Notes under the pieces: model-generated
What the model saw: only the letters and a program-made list of their open reading frames with translations
Database searches by the model: none
What the model was told of the DNA's origin: nothing
Translations under genes and position numbers: made by a program
Part shown: positions 18,158 to 28,491 of the stretch, piece after piece
Numbering within the stretch: the first letter of the stretch is position 1
How the letters are laid out: each line of letters starts with the position of its first letter
Source of the DNA: Geitlerinema sp. PCC 7407
GTDB lineage: Bacteria > Cyanobacteriota > Cyanobacteriia > PCC-7407
Reading direction: 5' to 3'
Assembly (NCBI RefSeq): GCF_000317045.1
Contig: NC_019703.1
Coordinates: forward strand, 1,352,501 to 1,416,500
DNA length: 64,000 bases

Positions 18158-18302
18158 TTAGATTTTGCCTCCTCATCGTGAACTCACGTCTAGCCGCAGC
18201 ACATTTTATCAAACCCCTTTGCATTCATGCTTTTCGGGCAGCTAGCCTGGCGGGTCTGGGGGCCTAACCTGCTGGCTGAAGCAAGGTCATCATCTCGCTT
18301 CT

Positions 18303-18359
18303 ATTCATCTCAACACCAAATCAAAGATGATGGTGTGAGGCTTCTGCTGCTTGAGCTAA
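18303..18359. repeat. 57-base dispersed repeat, copy 1
   Basis: This copy matches 28426-28482 with five differences over 57 bases. Its core forms a stem CTCA-(A)-CACCA with TGGTGTGAG. It lies between the divergent peptidoglycan-binding and ADP-ribosylglycohydrolase-like genes, 39 bases before the latter's start. A change of A to G on one stem side is matched by T to C on the other in copy 2. Confidence 0.75.
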
Positions 18360-18397
18360 AGGTGCAGGACGTTCGGGACTTGCGACAAGAGAGAGAG

Positions 18398-19348
18398 ATG
18401 CGCTATTCGCTGGTAAGCCGCTTTCAGGGCGCGTTGGTTGGCACGGTGTTGGGAGAGCGAGCGAGGGCTGGGGGCGATCGCCCGCTGAAGGGTGAGCAGC
18501 GCTCTGGCTTGCAGGCTCAGCCAGAGCCGATTAGCGCGATCGCCGATCGGCTAACCCGGGGTGCCCAGGCCTTGGTGGAAGGACGAACGGTGATTCCCGA
18601 CGTGTGGCGATCGCTGCTGGCGGAGCCCCTGCCCGGGGAAAATGAGCCGCCCAGCGCGGCCTTGGCGATCGCCCTCGCCCTGCCCGTGTTCCTGGTGTTC
18701 CATGGCAGTCCCTACGAGCGCAGTAGCGCCCTTGAGGCGATCGCGGCGGCTCGGCCAGACCCCGAGTTTTTGGTGGGAGCTACGGTTTGGCTGGAGGCGA
18801 TCGCCCTGGGACTCACCGATCGCCTAGAACCCCCGACCCTGCTGGCCCACGGCCTCGAAGCGCTGCCAGACTCGCCAGATTCAGCGTCGCTTGCCCCCTT
18901 GCGCCAGGCCCTGAACCAGGCGCAAATCTGCCTCAGCACCCAAAAGCCTCTCAACCAAACAGAACGCGCCTTAACGGCCCTGAATCTCGGGCCGACCGGC
19001 GGCACTGCGAAGGCGATCGCCCTCGCCGCCGCTCACTTTCTCAGTGCGCCAGACAACCCAGCCCTGCTTCTCGGGCGGCTCCAGCCCCCAACGGCCGATC
19101 CGCGAGCCGTAGGCGCTCTCGCGGGAGGCTTGAGCGGCCTCTACAATGGTCTGTCTGGTCTACCAATCCTGAGCCGCCTGGCCCTTGCCGCGTCGCCGTC
19201 TGGCCCAACAGATCAGCTATCAACGCTGAAAACGGCTGGTGCCGCCCTAGCGGGAGTCTGGGCTGGGGCCATGGACCCCACCGAGTTTGCGGCGGCAGGA
19301 CAATCGGGACTGGCGATCGCCGCTGCGCGGGTGATTCGGCCTCGCTGA
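18398..19348 (+). CDS. ADP-ribosylglycohydrolase-like protein
   Basis: With ATG 18398 the protein has 316 residues. An upstream extension to 18227 would read through the dispersed repeat and is rejected. The N-terminus (RYSLVSRFQGALVGTVLGE) and the all-helical, Ala-rich build recall the ADP-ribosylglycohydrolase/DraG fold, including a C-terminal GLSGLYNGLSGLP segment, but the metal-binding acidic pairs typical of active DraG enzymes are not obvious. No signal peptide. It may be a non-catalytic member; the family call is tentative. Confidence 0.6.
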   Translation: MRYSLVSRFQGALVGTVLGERARAGGDRPLKGEQRSGLQAQPEPISAIADRLTRGAQALVEGRTVIPDVWRSLLAEPLPGENEPPSAALAIALALPVFLVFHGSPYERSSALEAIAAARPDPEFLVGATVWLEAIALGLTDRLEPPTLLAHGLEALPDSPDSASLAPLRQALNQAQICLSTQKPLNQTERALTALNLGPTGGTAKAIALAAAHFLSAPDNPALLLGRLQPPTADPRAVGALAGGLSGLYNGLSGLPILSRLALAASPSGPTDQLSTLKTAGAALAGVWAGAMDPTEFAAAGQSGLAIAAARVIRPR

Positions 19349-19737
19349 ACCCGCCCCCAAAATGCCCCGCTCCCAAATCCATTCGATAGACTGGAGACAG
19401 GCTCATCCCTTCTCAGCTGGCGTGAATCGGTCGAAAACGGTTAAACGCTTCTCGATCGCTAGCTTTTGGTCATTTTCTGCAAGGTGAAGTAAGCTCGAAA
19501 AAATCTCCGTAAATTTTCGGAATCTAACGCCATTGCCAGCAACCTTCACCACGATGATCTTTCATCCGGGGGATTGACCCTGCGAAAACGGTGAGTTGAG
19601 ATAGACAAATCCATCAATTCACCCCATACTCGCGAAAGTTGATACGGATTTCTCCAATAGGTAACGATTAGTACCTATGCCAGTTTGCTCCATGACGGTC
19701 TCTAGTCTTCCTTGGTGTTGCCGCAGTTAGAGCCACT
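19349..19737. other. Leader/promoter region of the 7TM-HD gene
   Basis: 389 bases, AT-rich, no ORF supported. The only clear structure is an inverted repeat ATAGGTA-N8-TACCTAT at 19657-19678, 60 bases before the start codon. Confidence 0.45.
19657..19678. promoter_or_regulatory. Inverted repeat, candidate operator
   Basis: ATAGGTA and TACCTAT are perfect 7-bp arms with an 8-base spacer ACGATTAG. The 22-bp symmetry suits a dimeric regulator; it could also be a small RNA hairpin. Confidence 0.35.
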
Positions 19738-22311
19738 ATGAGAACGCTTCATACCTTCACGCGGCAAGTGGATCGTTGGTGTCGGCGTGCGATCAATCAG
19801 CTTCCCGAGCTTCGACGGGCCGACGTGTCCCTCCCTGTCTGCTCACCCCATCCCCAAAAGCTGTCAGTGACTCCTGTGAATCGCTCTCCTTCGACGCAAG
19901 AGACCGGCACAGACCCGCTCTCTCCTGACGCATCTCCTCAGCCATCTAGGACCGAAACCTTGCCGCAGGACGCTAGAGAGGCGACCTGCTTACCCTGCCG
20001 TCGGCGTCCCCAAACGCCCACGATGTTTCTAATCGCGGTGGTGTCTCTGACCAGTGCCATTGGCTATCGCTTCTACAATGAACCAGAGCTGAACATCGGG
20101 ACGCGGGCGCCCCAGACCATCGAAGTGCCTAGGGATGCCAATGTCGAAGATACTCGGACGACGGAGGAGCGCCGAAAAGCGGCTCGAACCGGTGCAGTGC
20201 CGGTTTTGATGCTGGATCAGGAGGTGACGCGGCAGCTGACTGCCGATCTCCAGAACCAGCTTGATGAAATTAACCGACTGCGAGAGTTGGGCGGTGCGTT
20301 TCCCTTTGCGCCCATTAGTTTGGTGTCTCTGGAGTCCCAGCTATTTATTCGTCAGGCTCAGGAGTGGGAATGGCGAACGATCTTGGAGGCCATTAATCGC
20401 ACGGCCACTGCCAGTGATAGTCCCGGCAATGGCGGTGCTGCTCTGGCGATGCCCCAGCTGCCCCTAAATGAGACGCAGCAGATGGTGGTGGCGGAGCTGC
20501 AAAACTATCGTCAAGCGACGTCGCCTCAGGCTTTTGCGAGTTTGATAGAGACGATCAATGAGGTGCGGCGCCGCTATCCGCGGGCGATCGCCGCCCTGTC
20601 GAGTCCCGAAAACCGCATTGATGCGGCCTACTCGGTGGTTTTGCTGGATCTTTCAGATGACGAGTGGACCCAGGTGCAGCGATCGACCCAGCAGGCGCTC
20701 AGCCGCATCCTGGCCCAGGGGCTGCCACCAGGTCTGCCCGATAACTTGCTCAAGAACGCGATTCGGATGCAGATAGCCGCAACGGTTCCGTCGGGGACCG
20801 AGGCGATCGCCCTTGACCTGCTGTTCGATGTTCTGCACCAGCGCTCGAACCTAGTTAAGGACAATGAGCGGACCAAGCAACAGGCAGAGCAAGCGGCCTT
20901 GGCGGTCGAGCCGGTGATCCTCCGTGTGCGCCAGGGAGAAGTCATCGTCCGCGAGGGCGAAGAAATCACGGCGTCGGATTTTGCGCTGCTGGACTACTTC
21001 CGCCTCAGTCGCCGCAGCGTAAACTGGGTGGGCCTAATCGGCTTTATGGCGCTGTCGGGAGGCGCTGTCGGTTTGTTTTGGTTTGTGGAGCGACGTTTTC
21101 ATCCGGGACTGCGGCGGCGCGATCGCATTTTGGTCCTGTTACTGGTTCTCAGTACGCCTCTGCTGATTGCCCTGCGCGCTCCCTCCACCAACTTGCCTCT
21201 CGTGGGTATGTTGATTGGTGGCTTTTACGGTTCGGCGCTAGCCGTGACGGGGGTGGGCGCTTTGGCACTCCTGTTGCCCGTGGGTCTAGATTTGGCCTGG
21301 GGCAGTCTCCTGTCGAGTGCGGCTGGGGGGCTGGTGGGGGGCCTGATGGCCGGTCGACTGCGATCGCGCGAAGAGTTTGCGCTGCTTGGCCTCACCGTAG
21401 GAGCCACCGAAGCCGTGGTCTATCTCCTCGCTAGCGCCGTCTTGAGCGGGACAGCTGGACCGGTCTGGTATCTAGCCCTCAAGGCGGCGGGCCTTCAGGC
21501 GATGATAGGGTCCGCCTGGAGCGTGGTTGCCCTGGGCCTGAGTCCCTACCTCGAGCATTTCTTTGATCTAGTCACGCCGATTCGCTTGGCCGAGCTGGCC
21601 AACCCGAACCGGCCCTTGCTGAAGCGCCTCGCGTCCGAGGCTCCCGGCACCTTTCAGCACACGCTGTTTGTGGCGAGCTTGGCGGAGGCGGCGGCCCGCG
21701 CCCTGCGCTGCAACGTCGAGCTGATTCGGGCTGGCACCCTCTACCATGACATTGGCAAGATGCACGACCCGCTGGGCTTCATCGAAAACCAGATGGGCGG
21801 GCCCAACAAGCACGACGCCATCAACGACCCCTGGATCAGTGCGGCCTTGATCAAAAAGCACGTGACCGAGGGGCTGGTGATGGCCCGCAAGTACCGGCTG
21901 CCCTGTGCGATTCAGGCCTTCATTCCTGAGCACCAGGGCACGATGCTGATCGCCTACTTCTATCACCAGGCGAAGCAGCGGGCTGAGGCAGATCCCACGC
22001 TGGTGGTGGATGAGGGAGAGTTTCGCTACAGCGGTCCGATTCCCCAGTCTCGCGAGACTGGAATCGTGATGCTGGCGGATTCCTGTGAGGCGGCTCTGCG
22101 ATCGCTCAAGGACGCCACCTACGAGGAAGCCCTGGTCATGGTCAACAAAATTTTGCGCGCTCGCTGGCAAGATCAGCAGCTGTCGGAATCGGGGCTAACT
22201 CGAGCCGAAATGTCTACGATCGCCGAGGTGTTTGTCCAGGTTTGGCAGCAGTTTAACCACCAGCGCATCGCCTATCCTAAGGCGGTCCTGTCTCCCCAGT
22301 CGGCGAACTGA
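19738..22311 (+). CDS. 7TM-HD family phosphohydrolase (PgpH-like)
   Basis: An 857-residue membrane enzyme. After a cytosolic N-terminal tail and one membrane segment (about 98-113), an extracytoplasmic 7TMR-HDED domain covers about 120-400, then seven membrane helices (about 430-630), then a cytosolic HD domain (about 635-810). Catalytic residues are visible: FQHTLFVASLAEAAA with the first His, the HD pair in LYHDIGKMHDP, later His residues in GPNKHDAIND, IKKHVTEG and PEHQGT. PgpH proteins of this layout hydrolyse cyclic di-AMP in other bacteria; that role here is inference from the family. The 95-residue polar N-terminal extension is longer than in typical homologs; a later start is possible but no better ATG is evident. 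Confidence 0.92.
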   Translation: MRTLHTFTRQVDRWCRRAINQLPELRRADVSLPVCSPHPQKLSVTPVNRSPSTQETGTDPLSPDASPQPSRTETLPQDAREATCLPCRRRPQTPTMFLIAVVSLTSAIGYRFYNEPELNIGTRAPQTIEVPRDANVEDTRTTEERRKAARTGAVPVLMLDQEVTRQLTADLQNQLDEINRLRELGGAFPFAPISLVSLESQLFIRQAQEWEWRTILEAINRTATASDSPGNGGAALAMPQLPLNETQQMVVAELQNYRQATSPQAFASLIETINEVRRRYPRAIAALSSPENRIDAAYSVVLLDLSDDEWTQVQRSTQQALSRILAQGLPPGLPDNLLKNAIRMQIAATVPSGTEAIALDLLFDVLHQRSNLVKDNERTKQQAEQAALAVEPVILRVRQGEVIVREGEEITASDFALLDYFRLSRRSVNWVGLIGFMALSGGAVGLFWFVERRFHPGLRRRDRILVLLLVLSTPLLIALRAPSTNLPLVGMLIGGFYGSALAVTGVGALALLLPVGLDLAWGSLLSSAAGGLVGGLMAGRLRSREEFALLGLTVGATEAVVYLLASAVLSGTAGPVWYLALKAAGLQAMIGSAWSVVALGLSPYLEHFFDLVTPIRLAELANPNRPLLKRLASEAPGTFQHTLFVASLAEAAARALRCNVELIRAGTLYHDIGKMHDPLGFIENQMGGPNKHDAINDPWISAALIKKHVTEGLVMARKYRLPCAIQAFIPEHQGTMLIAYFYHQAKQRAEADPTLVVDEGEFRYSGPIPQSRETGIVMLADSCEAALRSLKDATYEEALVMVNKILRARWQDQQLSESGLTRAEMSTIAEVFVQVWQQFNHQRIAYPKAVLSPQSAN

Positions 22312-22320
22312 GGCCCAAGA

Positions 22321-23154
22321 TCAGCCTTTGACGCCGCTGCCGGCCTCCGAGGGGACGATGTAGCGCTGGAGAAAGGCGAACAGCAGCAAAATCGGCAAGA
22401 TTGACAGCACCGACCCGGCAGCGATGATTCGCCAGTCGGGGGAAAATACGCCCTCTAGGGAGGCAACACCTAGGGGCAGGGTGTAGTAGTCTGAGCCCGG
22501 ATCTAGAACGATCAGTGGCCACAGAAAGTCGCTCCAGGAGCCGATAAACACAAAAATTGCCAGGGTAATCAGCGCTGGGCGAATAGCAGGCAGCATGACG
22601 TGCCACCACAGCCCCAGCTCAGAGCAGCCATCGATGCGGGCTGCTTCTTCGAGCTCCTTGGGGACGCCCAAAAACGCCTGCCGCAGCAGAAAGATGCCAA
22701 AGGCCGAGGCGATCGCCGGAAAAATCAGGCCTAGATAGCTGTTGCGCAGGCCGAGCTGGACGGTGAGCACGTACAGCGGAATCATGACGATCTGAAAGGG
22801 AATCAAAATCGTCGCAATGATCGAGGTCAAGATCCAGTCTCGCCCGCGAAAACTGAGCCGTGCCAAAGGATAGGCTGCCAGGGAACAAAACAGCAGATTC
22901 AGGGTGACTGTCAGGACCGCAACGATGGTGCTGTTGATGAGGTAGCGACCAAAGGGGGCCAGCTGCCACACCTGGGCGTAGTTTTCGAGGGTTGGCTGCT
23001 GCGGCAGAAGCTGGGGCGGGTACTGGAAGATGTCCTCGGTGGGCGCTTTGAGGGAGGTGCTCACCAGCCACAGCAGGGGCAAGAGCATGACGAAGGCGAT
23101 CGCCAGCAGCAGGCCATAGGTCACTAGCGTTTTTCCGGTACCGTTGCGAATCAT
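22321..23154 (-). CDS. Sugar ABC transporter permease (MalG/UgpE type)
   Basis: A 277-residue inner-membrane permease with six predicted helices. The EAA loop that docks the ATPase is intact: KELEEAARIDGCSELGLWWHVMLPAIRPALI (about 180-210). This belongs to the second permease of carbohydrate importers (CUT1). No partner permease, binding protein or ATPase gene is nearby, so its complex must be completed from elsewhere in the genome. It ends 10 bases from the convergent 7TM-HD gene. Confidence 0.9.
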   Translation of the reverse strand: MIRNGTGKTLVTYGLLLAIAFVMLLPLLWLVSTSLKAPTEDIFQYPPQLLPQQPTLENYAQVWQLAPFGRYLINSTIVAVLTVTLNLLFCSLAAYPLARLSFRGRDWILTSIIATILIPFQIVMIPLYVLTVQLGLRNSYLGLIFPAIASAFGIFLLRQAFLGVPKELEEAARIDGCSELGLWWHVMLPAIRPALITLAIFVFIGSWSDFLWPLIVLDPGSDYYTLPLGVASLEGVFSPDWRIIAAGSVLSILPILLLFAFLQRYIVPSEAGSGVKG

Positions 23155-23231
23155 GGCAAGAGCGCCCGTGGGCCAAGGATTTCTCGGTTGCTATCTTGCC
23201 ACGAAAGCCCGCCATCTCAAACTGTCTGGGC

Positions 23232-24182
23232 TCAAACTCGCCGGGCGATCGCAAATCGGTCATGCCCCGCGAGGTCCCGTTCGATCCGAATATCCCGGTA
23301 GGTTCCCAAGTCTGCCAGCAGCGCGGCGATCGCCTCTCCCTGGCCCGCCATCATCTCCACGACCCAGAGACCGCCGGGTTCGAGATAGGCCGGAGCGCTC
23401 TCGGCCAAATGGCGAATGCAGTCGAGACCGTCAGGCCCTCCATCGAGGGCCAGGGAAGGCTCATGCTGTACGACCTCGGGCTGGAGCGTCGGCACGATGG
23501 CGCTGGGAATGTAGGGAGGATTGGAGACGACGCCTGCGAGCTGGCCCCGCCCCGGCCCCAGCGGTTCCAGCCAAGACCCCTGATGAAACTGCACGCGATC
23601 GCCCATAAAATACCGCTCTGCGTTGCGCTGGGCGATCGCGATCGCTGCGGGACTCGTGTCCACTGCGTGAATGTGAGCCTGGGGAAGTGCCTCTGCCAAA
23701 CCGAGGGCGATCGCCCCGCTGCCCGTTCCCAGGTCTGCCCAGTGCCCGCGCGTCGCCGCAGTCCCCTCCACCGCCTGCACCACCAGATCAATGATCAGCT
23801 CGGTCTCGGGACGAGGAATCAGCACAGCCGGCGACACCTCCAGCCAAAAGTGCCGCCACGGCGCCAAACCGACCAAATACTGCACCGGTACCCGCTCTTG
23901 GACCCGCTGCTTCCATCGCTGCTCTAGCTCCTCCAGGGAAAACTTGGCGGCAATGGCCGCGCGATCGCCCAGGGTCCCCAGGCGCAGCGCCAACGGATCG
24001 ACGCGGGCGATCGCCTGCAAAAACCAGTCAACCTCTCCAGTCGGGACGCCCGCCGCTGCGGCCGCCTGCTGGGCCTGCGATCGCCACGCTGCCAGCGCTT
24101 GGCCCGAAATTTGATGCTGCCAATCCTCACCGCCCAAGCCGCCCCCAGAAGCTGGGTGTGAAGAACGCTGCTGGTTCGCCAT
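23232..24182 (-). CDS. prmC: Release factor glutamine methyltransferase
   Basis: PrmC/HemK methylates the Gln of the GGQ motif in RF1 and RF2 using S-adenosylmethionine. From ATG 24182 the protein has 316 residues. An N-terminal helical bundle (about 20-110) leads to a Rossmann methyltransferase with VLIPRPETELI, ADLGTGSGAIALGLA and the signature NPPYIPS. The longer frame from 24239 would start inside the upstream terminator hairpin, so the shorter start is preferred. It pairs functionally with the prfC gene at the left end of the window, though not in the same operon. Confidence 0.94.
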   Translation of the reverse strand: MANQQRSSHPASGGGLGGEDWQHQISGQALAAWRSQAQQAAAAAGVPTGEVDWFLQAIARVDPLALRLGTLGDRAAIAAKFSLEELEQRWKQRVQERVPVQYLVGLAPWRHFWLEVSPAVLIPRPETELIIDLVVQAVEGTAATRGHWADLGTGSGAIALGLAEALPQAHIHAVDTSPAAIAIAQRNAERYFMGDRVQFHQGSWLEPLGPGRGQLAGVVSNPPYIPSAIVPTLQPEVVQHEPSLALDGGPDGLDCIRHLAESAPAYLEPGGLWVVEMMAGQGEAIAALLADLGTYRDIRIERDLAGHDRFAIARRV

Positions 24183-24221
24183 AGTAGTTTGCCGTCGCCC
24201 CGTGCTCCCATCAACAACAAA

Positions 24222-24254
24222 AGTTGCAGCTTTACCCAAGGTAAGGCTGCAACT
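24222..24254 (-). terminator. Terminator of the tic22 gene
   Basis: AGTTGCAGC / GCTGCAACT plus an inner TTACC / GGTAA form a long hairpin with loop CAA. On the minus strand it is followed by TTTTGTTGTTG, which fits a rho-independent terminator for tic22 just ahead of prmC. Confidence 0.75.
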
Positions 24255-24364
24255 CTTGCTTACGCAGAATTTTTGCAGATTTCTAGCCGGTTTGTCCGAT
24301 CGCCAGATGAGGGCGCTGTCGAGCTGACAGGACGCCGCGATCGCGGCCGACTACGGGCGATCGC

Positions 24365-25147
24365 CTATCGCTGCTGCTGCACCGACTGCACAAAGTTCTT
24401 GAACTCCTGGGACTGCACATACTGACGTGACTCCGGCGTCATCACAAACACCACCTTCTCGAGCCACTCGTCATTCTTGCTGCGCAACTCCTGCAAAACG
24501 CCATCAATGCTGAGCACTTGAATGTCAGCTTCTGGCTGTTTTTGCTTGACGACATTCAGCACGCTCTGAGCTTCCTGAGCGCTAAAGAACAGCGGAATCA
24601 CCTCCGGCTCGCCCTGCTTAAAGCTCATCGGAATCAGACCCTTATTGGGGCCGTAGCGCACTGCAAAAAGAGGCACTGCATCCGGATTGGACTCCTGACC
24701 ACTTTGGCGCAGGATCGATGCAGCAGCATCGGTCTGACTCTTGGTCGGAATAAAGCGGAAGGCAACCGGCTGAGGGTTATCTTTTTGCTCCATTGCCAGC
24801 TGATAAACATCGCTGAGGAAAATAGGAATAACGCGCGTTTGGTTACCCACTTGAGGATTGTCGGTCTTGAGGCGATTGAGAAACGCTTCGGCATCTTGGC
24901 GGCTGATAAAAATGCCCATCACCTCAACATTCTTCGCCGCACCGCCGCTGCCACCTTCGGCGGGCACAGAAGCCACTAGCGGCGTCAGATTCCCGTCGGC
25001 GATCGTGTAAGCGACCGCGCTCTGAAGCTTTTCGACAATCTCATCGTCGGTCAGTGCCAAAACTTGCGTTGCGAAGCTGAGGGCTGAACCCATCACCGTC
25101 GCTCCGATGAGTCCTAAGGTTGTAGTCCAACGAACGAGTGATTTCAT
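24365..25147 (-). CDS. Tic22 family protein
   Basis: A 260-residue exported protein. ATG 25147 gives an N-terminal signal (KSLVRWTTTLGLIGATVMGSALSFATQVLA). The mature part has the two-fold Tic22 pattern: VEVMGIFISRQDAEAFLNRLK ... IPIFLSDVYQLAMEQ and a second half with VPLFAVRYGPNKGLIPMSFKQGEPEVIPLFFSAQEAQ. In plants Tic22 works in the chloroplast envelope intermembrane space; cyanobacterial homologs are periplasmic and are linked to outer-membrane protein biogenesis. It has its own terminator, so it is probably monocistronic. Confidence 0.9.
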   Translation of the reverse strand: MKSLVRWTTTLGLIGATVMGSALSFATQVLALTDDEIVEKLQSAVAYTIADGNLTPLVASVPAEGGSGGAAKNVEVMGIFISRQDAEAFLNRLKTDNPQVGNQTRVIPIFLSDVYQLAMEQKDNPQPVAFRFIPTKSQTDAAASILRQSGQESNPDAVPLFAVRYGPNKGLIPMSFKQGEPEVIPLFFSAQEAQSVLNVVKQKQPEADIQVLSIDGVLQELRSKNDEWLEKVVFVMTPESRQYVQSQEFKNFVQSVQQQR

Positions 25148-25731
25148 AAATGCTCCTAGCATCAATAAAACAGCAATCAAAGATGGGAAGAGCGCTCAAC
25201 AGTAATGAACGCTTAGATCGGACTCATTTCCCTATTTTGGTGAGCGAGCATTCCTTCTCGTCTTGATTTGACAAATCTGCTTTGAGGCGCTGATTCAACT
25301 GACAATTCTGGACCATCATCTTCTCATTTGCAAATCATTCGGCTGATGTAAATAAAAGCCCCAGAAAGCTGAAAATGATAGATTTTGTATGCGCGATCGC
25401 CTGAAAGTCCAGAGCTTGAAGAATGATCCTTGGTAGTATCTTTGACTGTAATCAACAGCCGGATTCCTGATAAAAGTTAGCGAACTTTTTGAGATCATTT
25501 CTGCTTTGGGTCTTGGCTTTTTAAGCTTTCGCAGAAGGATCAAGGTGTCGGTTAGCGTCGGGCCTCTGCTAAGGGAAGGACTGGCGGCTCAAGCTTTAGG
25601 TTCCTTGGGTACAGGCAAATCCGCAATATTTCGGACATGGGCACTTGGAGAAGAGCGGGACGCGGAAGGGCGTTTTCAGGGGGCAGGAGACAGGCTAACT
25701 TTGACTTAACTGGAAGTAGGTGGAGGATGAG
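25148..25731. other. 584-base intergenic region
   Basis: This lies between the divergent tic22 and binding-protein genes. No ORF has family support. It is AT-rich in 25160-25520 and should hold both promoters. A weak hairpin AAAAGTT-AGCG-AACTTTTT near 25474-25492 is the only structure noted. Confidence 0.4.
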
Positions 25732-27063
25732 ATGACGCGCGCAAGGATTGGTAGATTCAACCTTTGGATGGTTTTGGCGGCGGGCTGGATGTCGCGCGCA
25801 CGGGGCGGGCGATCGCGCTGGACACGTCTGGGGGCGATCGCGACCCTAGCCATTATGGTAGCGGGTTGCGAAGGCGGCACGGGCTCTGGTGGCGGTCTCA
25901 AAATTGGTACACTGCTGCCCATTACGGGGGACCTCGCCCAGTATGGCCAGCCTATGGAAGACAGCGCTCGTCTCCTGGTCGAAACGGTCAATGCCTGTGG
26001 CGGGGTGCTAGAGCAGCCCATCACTCTAATTACGGCGGATGACGAGACGGATCCGGCACGGGGCACGACGGCCATGGCCAAGCTGGCGGAGGTCGATCGG
26101 GTGGCGGCCGTGATTGGGGCGGCCTCTAGCGCGGTGTCTAGCGCCACGGTGGATATCGCGGTCCGCAACCGAGTGCTCCAAATTTCTCCGGCCAGCACGA
26201 GTCCTGTCTTCACAGAGCGGGCTCAAAAAGGCGACTTCCAGGGCTACTGGTTCCGCACTGCGCCGCCGGACACCTTCCAGGGAGAGGCGATCGCCCAGTT
26301 GGCTAAAAAGCGCAACTATCAGCGAGTTTCGGTACTGGCTATCAATAATGACTATGGCAACGGTCTCGTAGATTCCTTTGTGTCCTCTTTCCAGGCCATC
26401 GACGGCAAGCTCCAGGGGCAGCCGACCCGCTACGCTCCCGACACGGCCAGCTTTACCTCTGAGGTGAGCGCTGCGTTTCAGGGCGACCCCGATGCTGTCT
26501 TATTGGTTGCCTACCCCGAGACGGGCAGCCTGATCCTCAAGACGGCCTATCAGCAGGGCCTCTTGAACGGCGAGACCCCGGTGATCGCAACCGATGGCAT
26601 GAAAGACAATAATATTGCCGAGCTGGTCGGGGCTGGCTCTGATGGTAAGCTGATCGCCGCGGGCCTGAGCGGGACGGCGCCCAGCGCTGGCGGGCCTGCG
26701 CTCCAGGCCTTTCGCGATCGCTATCAGCAAAAGTACAGCCGTCAGCCCAGCGTCTACGACCCAAATACTTGGGACGCGGGTGCCTTGATTGTTTTGGCTG
26801 CCGAGGCCGCAAAGTCAACCGAAGGCTCGGCCATCAAAGACAAGGTTGCAGAAGTCGCCAACGCGCCGGGCCAAGAAGTCTCGGACGTCTGCGAAGCGCT
26901 CCGACTGGTGCGGGAAGGCCAGGACGTCAACTATCAAGGGGCCAGCGGTGTGGTCGACTTTGATGCCCAGGGGGACGTGACCGGCACCTATGACGTGTGG
27001 AGCGTGACCGATCAGGGCCGTCTGACGGTGACCGACCAGGTCGTGGTCGGCGGCGAGTCCTAG
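25732..27063 (+). CDS. ABC transporter substrate-binding lipoprotein (branched-chain amino acid/NatB type)
   Basis: A 443-residue periplasmic binding protein (type 1 fold). The start at ATG 25732 is preferred over GTG 25720 because GGAGG lies five bases upstream. A basic N-terminus and hydrophobic stretch end in the lipobox MVAGC, so the mature protein is lipid-anchored. The binding domain begins LKIGTLLPITGDLAQYGQPM and contains AAVIGAASSAVSSA, RVSVLAINNDYGNG and PVIATDGMKD, as in LivJ/NatB proteins. No permease or ATPase is adjacent. A hairpin follows the stop, then a tRNA gene on the other strand. Confidence 0.92.
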   Translation: MTRARIGRFNLWMVLAAGWMSRARGGRSRWTRLGAIATLAIMVAGCEGGTGSGGGLKIGTLLPITGDLAQYGQPMEDSARLLVETVNACGGVLEQPITLITADDETDPARGTTAMAKLAEVDRVAAVIGAASSAVSSATVDIAVRNRVLQISPASTSPVFTERAQKGDFQGYWFRTAPPDTFQGEAIAQLAKKRNYQRVSVLAINNDYGNGLVDSFVSSFQAIDGKLQGQPTRYAPDTASFTSEVSAAFQGDPDAVLLVAYPETGSLILKTAYQQGLLNGETPVIATDGMKDNNIAELVGAGSDGKLIAAGLSGTAPSAGGPALQAFRDRYQQKYSRQPSVYDPNTWDAGALIVLAAEAAKSTEGSAIKDKVAEVANAPGQEVSDVCEALRLVREGQDVNYQGASGVVDFDAQGDVTGTYDVWSVTDQGRLTVTDQVVVGGES

Positions 27064-27077
27064 CCACAAATGCAAAA

Positions 27078-27108
27078 GCCGAGGCCCCTTTGTCTGTCGG
27101 GCCTCGGC
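27078..27108. terminator. Hairpin between binding-protein gene and tRNA-Pro
   Basis: A perfect 10-bp stem GCCGAGGCCC / GGGCCTCGGC lies 15 bases past the stop. The T-tract is poor on the plus side. On the minus side it is followed by TTTTGC, so it may also end the tRNA transcript. Confidence 0.65.
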
Positions 27109-27134
27109 GGTCTATCAAGCAAGTTGTTTGTCAA

Positions 27135-27208
27135 TCGGGATGACAGGATTTGAACCTGCGGCATCCTGCTCCCAAAGCAGGCGCGCTACCAAGCTGCGCT
27201 ACATCCCG
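27135..27208 (-). tRNA. tRNA-Pro (anticodon TGG)
   Basis: The minus strand folds as a complete cloverleaf: a 7-bp acceptor CGGGATG / CATCCCG, a D arm GCGC-AGCTTGGTA-GCGC, an anticodon arm CCTGC-TTTGGGA-GCAGG with TGG at positions 34-36, and a T arm GCAGG-TTCAAAT-CCTGT. The discriminator is A and CCA is not encoded. No intron. Confidence 0.97.
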
Positions 27209-27486
27209 TTTCGCTAACATAGTATAGCTTGCTTTGGGAGCGATCTGTGCGCCCTTCTGGAGAATTGGGTAGCGTGTGTGGGTGAAAAAGTGGGTGAGCA
27301 ATTCTCGCAACTGTTCTGTCTCTGAGGGTGAACAGCGCTGGGTTTGGCGCGGAGCGAGATTTCCTAAATATTGATCCAAATATTGATTTTCTGAAGCTTT
27401 CCCTCGTGCTTTTCGACGGCGTCCAACGCTCTTGGGTGCTGCCCTGATGTGTCAGTGTTTCCTGTTAATTTCGCTGCAAAACTCCG

Positions 27487-27927
27487 ATGACGCAATCTTC
27501 TTCTGCTCGCTCTGTGCGATCGCTGGATTGGTCCCTCGATCAGCTGCCGGGCCTCGATGCCCAGGCCCAAGCCCTGCTGCGCGATCGCGGCATCCTCACC
27601 ACGCTACAGCTGCTGAAGGCCGCCCAGACCTCACCCCAAAAAATTCAGCTGGCCCAGATAGCGCGAGTACCCGTGAACGCTGTCATCAAATGGGTTGCTC
27701 TGGCAGATTTGGCGCGGGTGCCCGACGTCGGCTGCGTCTTCTGTGGCTTGCTGCTCCACGCCGGCATTGCCTCCGTCACCCAGCTGGCCCAAACGCCTCC
27801 CCATCGCCTGACCCAGCAAATTCTGCGGCTCCAGGTGGCGATGATGCAGCGCCGCGATCTGTGCCCATCGGTCAACGAGGTCACCCGCTGGGTCCAACAG
27901 GCGCGATCGCTCTCTCCCGTGCGATGA
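27487..27927 (+). CDS. DUF4332-type helix-hairpin-helix protein
   Basis: A 146-residue soluble, mostly helical protein. It has two helix-hairpin-helix-like segments (DQLPGLDAQAQALLRDRGILTTLQLL and ADLARVPDVGCVFCGLLLHAGIASVTQLAQ), the pattern of DUF4332 proteins, which are predicted to bind nucleic acid or act as adaptors. No catalytic motif. Upstream is the divergent tRNA-Pro gene; downstream is a 560-base hairpin-rich gap. Confidence 0.7.
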   Translation: MTQSSSARSVRSLDWSLDQLPGLDAQAQALLRDRGILTTLQLLKAAQTSPQKIQLAQIARVPVNAVIKWVALADLARVPDVGCVFCGLLLHAGIASVTQLAQTPPHRLTQQILRLQVAMMQRRDLCPSVNEVTRWVQQARSLSPVR

Positions 27928-28491
27928 CTCCGGCTGAACTCGAACTCTGAACAAGGGAATAGAGCCTACCGATCGCAAAAGCCGCCTTCTGAGGAATAAG
28001 AACGCATGCGATCGCTCGAAATAGGGAATACTGAAGAAACGTCAGGGTTGGTGATATACTCCTACGCTGATACTGACGTATGCAGCGTAGGCTTCTCAGT
28101 GACCCCTGGTATCCCATCGGGCGTTTCCTGAGCTTTATTGACGATACGGGATGCCCCACCGCACCGGAACAATACAAAGAGTGTTGTTCTCTCCTTTGTA
28201 CTGCTGGAATTTTACCTGCCCACAGATGCGACGACGAATCGTCTGTTTCTAGGCAGAACCCCCTATTCCAGGTTGTCAAGGTTCAAGTTTCAGGGCGGCG
28301 ATTGGCTCAAACCCTTAGCCTGATTATCTCACACCCGTTTTGCATCATGAGAGATTTGCTCGTTTCTTCCCTCTCCCCTCCTCGCGCCTGCGGCATAGGT
28401 CAGAGGAGTGTCGTTCGCTCGCTCGCATTCATCTCAACGCCAAATCAAAGATGATGGCGTGAGGCTTCGGCTGCTTTGGCTAACGTCAGAA
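27928..28491. other. Hairpin-rich intergenic region with repeat copy 2
   Basis: No supportable ORF in 564 bases. Hairpins seen in order are CCTACGCTG / CAGCGTAGG (28061-28091), TACAAAG / CTTTGTA (28173-28200), and CTGCC / GGCAG (28216-28256) enclosing GACGA-CGAA-TCGTC (28230-28243). The 57-base dispersed repeat is at 28426-28482, ending nine bases short of the acetyltransferase stop codon. The array of stems suggests a structured RNA. Confidence 0.5.
28426..28482. repeat. 57-base dispersed repeat, copy 2
   Basis: Second copy of the element at 18303-18359. The core stem reads CTCA-(A)-CGCCA with TGGCGTGAG. The two stem differences from copy 1 are on opposite strands and keep pairing. It sits just beyond the 3' end of the minus-strand GNAT gene. 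Confidence 0.75.

Follow-up and report, generated by a model that had tools for sequence, protein, structure and literature searches.

A possible protein-free transposon family across cyanobacteria with an RNA module on the omega-core of resident TnpB

Palindrome-associated transposable elements (PATEs) were described in Haloquadratum walsbyi (PMC3119063), and a PATE-like element is known from Halanaerobium (PMC7290912). For transposons encoding TnpB, it is established or has been proposed that the omega-RNA scaffold ends at the right end (RE) of the transposon with the flank serving as guide, and that TnpB cuts the vacated site beside the target motif, with repair then restoring the transposon (PMC8612924, PMC10278001). 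Here, we analyzed a stretch of 64,000 nucleotides from Geitlerinema sp. PCC 7407, referred to below as the window. Our main reading, to which we give a probability of about 0.6, is that the window holds a PATE with an RNA module and an omega-RNA end, which TnpA would move and which would guide TnpB, both acting in trans.

Boundaries and ends of the element

A preliminary description of the window had pointed to a 57-base repeat with a stem. The two copies agree at 52 of 57 bases, with copy 1 at 18303-18359 as reported there and copy 2 at 28427-28483, one base past the position assigned to it. The stem, CTCA-A-CRCCA against TGGYGTGAG, was confirmed in the repeat copies, and its pattern occurs twice in the window versus 0 times in 100 shuffles. 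Searching the whole genome for the 31-nt hairpin with up to three mismatches returned 16 places, and the reversed control returned 0. As had been proposed, the repeat is dispersed, structured, distinct from HIP1 and non-coding, its largest ORF having no Pfam match. The 57 bases did not hold up as a unit; the unit is a 429-bp element, of which they are the portion that copy 1 retained.

A whole-element search of the 4.68-Mb genome recovered about 18 full-length copies, 14 at 84-100% identity and four at 73-77%, plus further fragments. In the window, a single copy is complete (28051-28483) and another survives as an end remnant (18294-18359). The 429-bp element at 28051-28479 reads from its left end (LE) to its RE on the minus strand, with sharp boundaries in the 18 full-length alignments and unrelated flanks; including TTAG, the full copy measures 433 bp, and most copies agree over this length, their edges being sharp on both sides. 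The remnant, also on the minus strand, is a truncated LE of about 66 bp, 88% identical to the element over 66 bp with no match beyond. A small ORF at 28080-28454 was rejected as a gene, as it has no Pfam match and shows 1-4-nt indels between copies.

The target tetranucleotide TTAG (28480-28483, minus strand) lies to the left of LE, outside the element. It precedes every intact IS and 17 of the 18 full-length copies, the remaining copy having TTAA. The LE hairpin (28433-28463, minus strand) reads CTCACGCCATCATCTTTGATTTGGCG-T-TGAG with an extrahelical T, which on the active strand is the counterpart of the A bulge first noticed on the plus strand. The RE hairpin (28061-28091, minus strand) reads CCTACGCTG-CATAC-GTCA-GTAT-CAGCGTAGG, with GAGAAG before it and AGTATATCAC after it. 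In transposon orientation, the tetranucleotide is followed by the LE hairpin and, at the far end, by the RE hairpin and TCAC, the same layout as in the intact IS. No target duplication was found, TTAG being absent from the right flank of the copies, and there are no terminal inverted repeats, as no inverted pair joins the element ends.

Three intact 1849-bp IS605 copies in this genome encode TnpB (PF07282/PF01385) and a divergent Y1 TnpA (PF01797, E = 5.6e-41), and have both LE (88% over 52 bp) and RE (85-87% over 112 bp) in common with the element. The RE region (28051-28162, minus strand), which is common to TnpB-encoding IS and occupies the omega-RNA core position, is 83-91% identical over 112-115 bp to the RE of related copies. 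About 15 additional places in the genome match only the first ~110 bp of the element; these are parts of ~1450-bp elements that encode a TnpB-like protein (PF07282, PF01385, PF12323). The earlier statement that the repeat lacks transposase holds for the element copy itself and not for the genome, because a Y1 transposase that would recognise the hairpin is supplied elsewhere in it.

An empty site could be reconstructed at one copy (L026; G000:C1:1723195-1723625), an insertion that introduces several stops into a GGDEF diguanylate cyclase gene. When the flanks were joined so as to keep exactly one TTAG, the GGDEF domain was continuous (PF00990, E = 1.7e-47), and the restored protein aligned to 3icl across the junction without a gap; dropping TTAG from the joined flanks broke the frame. 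Owing to this insertion, the strain is presumably without that diguanylate cyclase. Because of the TTAG site, the lack of inverted repeats and target duplication, the IS605-matching ends and the GGDEF restoration, we assign the element to the non-autonomous IS200/IS605 type (PATEs), and the 57-mer, judged by its sequence, is the ordinary left end of such a transposon. These insertion features are the ones that define IS200/IS605 elements and PATEs, so the hairpin first noticed would be a transposase-binding left end. The element is presumably mobilised in trans by TnpA.

The interior RNA module

The preliminary description had taken a stem change, A..T in copy 1 against G..C in copy 2, as a mark of selection on structure. 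The swap is present, but it is a single event among this genome's copies, and one such A-T/G-C pair is feeble support for selection on structure. Two copies (L021 and L032), compared with others of the same genome, carry one-sided changes that disrupt the LE stem. Covariation is clearer in the RE hairpin, whose covarying forms among copies are CTACGCTG/CAGCGTAG, CTACACCG/CGGTGTAG and CCGTGCTC/GAGCGCGG. Selection on structure was itself borne out, with the strong covariation sitting in the RE hairpin and the interior RNA instead of the LE stem.

The interior of the element, which is the site of tnpB in a normal IS, holds a conserved RNA module, and this is fused to the end of tnpB that forms omega-RNA. 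The module (28137-28276, minus strand) comprises three nested stems, a pseudoknot and the first omega-core stem. The main subfamily of Geitlerinema copies differs from a diverged one (L031-L034) by paired changes in this interior: CTGGAAT/ATTCCAG versus TCAAAGT/ACTTTGA, CTGCC/GGCAG versus GCATC/GATGC, and CGGTGCGG/CCGTATCG versus GTCTGCGG/CCGTGGAC. When the two subfamilies were aligned with MAFFT, two-sided changes affected 12 of 25 pairs and 98.9% of cells were paired, compared with 34-52% in slid controls, a contrast that amounts to essentially one evolutionary comparison. We therefore built a covariance model of 140 positions, R1. A MAFFT alignment of 13 sequences from five genomes had two-sided changes at 14 of 25 pairs and 98.2% of cells paired, and slid versions of it yielded one to four two-sided pairs and 32-53% pairing. 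G-U pairs on the LE-to-RE strand (38 of 319 paired cells) indicate that this is the folding strand, although their count does not separate RNA from single-stranded DNA because G-T pairs are tolerated in DNA. The pseudoknot, in which AGTAC../GTACT crosses TTGAACA/TGTTCAA, recurs in the module; in distant R1 members, the second pseudoknot stem alone is clear. By the pattern of these substitutions, the interior is a conserved RNA-like structure of ~140 nt.

No Rfam 15 family matches the element (E ≤ 5) or 17 other R1 loci (E ≤ 1); as far as sequence models reach, the RNA cargo is a structured family absent from Rfam. A weak candidate for an extended -10 box, TGA-GATAAT (28323-28328, minus strand), lies 52 nt upstream of the module. 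Variants occur at the same position in other Geitlerinema copies, and TATAAT is found in L094 and L113. A promoter common to the loci in this position was not detected, as the -10 box is not enriched over background (a 5/6 match at 14 of 30 loci versus 10 expected).

Relatives in other cyanobacteria

R1 was searched against 291 genomes of the cyanobacterial class and matched in 18 of them, several with multiple copies, with E-values down to 2e-22 outside the Geitlerinema genome. The repeat had been put forward as a possible new element of the Geitlerinema lineage; 17 further sampled cyanobacterial genomes contain the interior RNA. These relatives were reached by the covariance model alone, because the exact LE pattern was found in no other species and full-length DNA homologues, among 96 genomes, occurred in the Geitlerinema genome only. 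The check that the preliminary description had suggested, for more copies and with a covariance model, came out in favour of its idea. Several of the matches in other genomes, among them L095, L108, L109, L111, L112, L119 and L120, lie within elements that span roughly 430-600 bp and are bounded by TTAG-LE and RE-GTCAC. The LE hairpin, with its bulge at the equivalent place, recurs with different sequences in other genera.

None of the 27 R1 loci checked outside the Geitlerinema genome has a gene for TnpA, TnpB or IscB within about 1.5 kb. With full-length TnpB queries, a TnpB remnant consisting of the last 23-31 codons was recognisable at six of these 27 loci; tblastn with short queries found no TnpB tail downstream of any R1 match. 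In G265, the element that carries the module has ends of quite another kind, TTAT...GTCAA, and its LE and RE match a TnpB-encoding IS of that genome. On the 3' side of this module, 94 nt match where a tnpB gene of the G265 genome, from another TnpB lineage, ends. The module has therefore been joined to omega-cores from more than one TnpB lineage. TnpB and Y1 TnpA are present in all 18 genomes with R1, a condition of the trans model. As TnpB is common in cyanobacteria, this co-occurrence is weak evidence.

Further features were observed around some of these loci. At L095, L111, L112 and L120 (G115 and G190), opposite-strand ORFs of about 51-52 aa lie in the stretch that separates LE from the RNA module; in L112 and L120 they match RHH_1/CopG (PF01402) above the Pfam cut-off, and those of L095 and L111 are of a third kind, below every Pfam cut-off. 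Related elements at L105, L108, L109 and L117 share a conserved stretch upstream of the module, GGTTAACTTCACC...TTGGTGTCTGATAAGCC..., and have a variant module, AATACAAAT...ATTTGTA, and opposite-running ORFs of about 150-170 aa. HEARO RNAs, some without adjoining iscB, occur at other loci in G086, G115, G170, G190, G199 and G287.

The distribution of the module bears on whether the element might be a plain PATE, in which only the end hairpins matter, for TnpA, and the interior structure is a functionless ancestral relic. That PATEs can consist of little more than their ends is well known (PMC3119063, PMC7290912), and one internally deleted Geitlerinema copy of 287 bp (L057; G000:C1:3573542-3573830) is without much of the interior while both its ends are intact. 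However, a relic would not hold 14 two-sided pair changes at 98% pairing across several genera, nor would it recur as one module inside different IS ends, and we consider this explanation unlikely.

Proposed mechanism and comparison with known systems

An omega-like scaffold at RE is indicated by homology to the end of tnpB, over 112 nt in the Geitlerinema genome, where it corresponds to the RE of the element, and over 94 nt in G265. R1 matches the TnpB-bearing IS of the Geitlerinema genome over only 23 positions, at its 3' end; an ordinary IS therefore does not include the 5' module. A role of the 5' module in TnpB binding is unsupported by homology, because the module was not found in TnpB-bearing IS. 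RNAs from the module would most likely be stand-alone guide RNAs for TnpB in trans, which is the simplest reading because a conserved RNA is fused to the scaffold in elements without tnpB. TnpA acting in trans would excise and paste the element via its two end hairpins. Transcription would run from LE to RE into the flank, so that the RNA would terminate in a guide taken from the sequence at the insertion site. TnpB from other IS copies would then bind this RNA and cut the vacated TTAG site, and the element would thereby be restored by repair. The element would thus parasitise both TnpA and TnpB, with the conserved 5' module replacing the tnpB mRNA as source or stabiliser of the guide RNA.

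Besides the lack of -10 enrichment, the commonness of TnpB in cyanobacteria and the absence of the 5' module from TnpB-bearing IS, the orientation of the copies counts against this explanation. Relative to GC-skew replichores, 17 of 22 element copies have the active strand on the leading-strand template (p = 0.017), and the TnpB-bearing IS lean 11:5 the opposite way to the 17:5 of the PATE copies (Fisher p = 0.008). A bias toward insertion in the lagging-strand template was accordingly rejected for the element copies. The orientation of the copies runs counter to the TnpB IS as well as to lagging-strand-template insertion.

The RNA might alternatively be a regulator, for example a decoy titrating TnpB or TnpA or a control on their mRNAs, in which case the 3' end derived from the flank would not matter. 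The omega-core is kept though tnpB is missing, and the divergent small ribbon-helix-helix gene (PF01402, E = 1.5e-7) beside the module in some relatives suggests regulated expression. We nevertheless hold a purely regulatory role to be improbable: the module adjoins RE, so transcription would probably continue into the flank, as it does for omega-RNA. It is very unlikely that the interior serves the excised single-strand circle as DNA; although the paired strand is the one that is single-stranded during IS200/IS605 transposition and would tolerate G-T pairs, end hairpins suffice for TnpA in IS608, autonomous IS of the family are without such an interior, and the 3' part coincides with omega-RNA.

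If the element does encode a trans-acting omega-RNA, non-autonomous transposons would parasitise not only a transposase but also the RNA-guided nuclease that holds transposons in place, which would account for the persistence of PATEs without tnpB. Such RNAs would be natural omega-RNAs free of coding constraint, and they would show guide RNAs becoming separate genes, as on the path from TnpB to CRISPR-Cas12. That the elements form one protein-free family across cyanobacteria, with a 5' RNA module grafted on the omega-core of the resident TnpB and with TnpA and TnpB both borrowed, is a tentative and, taken as a whole, somewhat doubtful proposal. Compared with Rfam and the open literature searched, an omega-RNA-bearing PATE is new.

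Like HEARO, the omega-RNA of IscB (RF02033), the module is a structured RNA on IS200/IS605-like elements in cyanobacteria. Identity with HEARO was rejected, as RF02033 matches neither the element nor the R1 loci (E ≤ 1) nor any place in the Geitlerinema genome; that genome has no RRXRR gene for IscB, and in the other genomes HEARO and IscB are at other places or absent. With PATEs, the element shares near-terminal palindromes, the absence of inverted terminal repeats and target duplication, ends related to the IS605 type, a length too short for a transposase and the expansion of one copy family in a genome. Unlike PATEs, which are short non-coding elements or fused, degenerate ends, it has a conserved structured interior found across genera and across different element ends. 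Like the omega-RNA or reRNA of TnpB in ISDra2 and its relatives (PMC8612924, PMC10278001), its 3' part is homologous to the RE end of tnpB; its scaffold would stop at RE and take its guide from the flank, and TTAG would be the TAM. Unlike those RNAs, it lies on an element without tnpB and has, in the place of the coding region, an extra 5' module made up of a pseudoknot and three stems.
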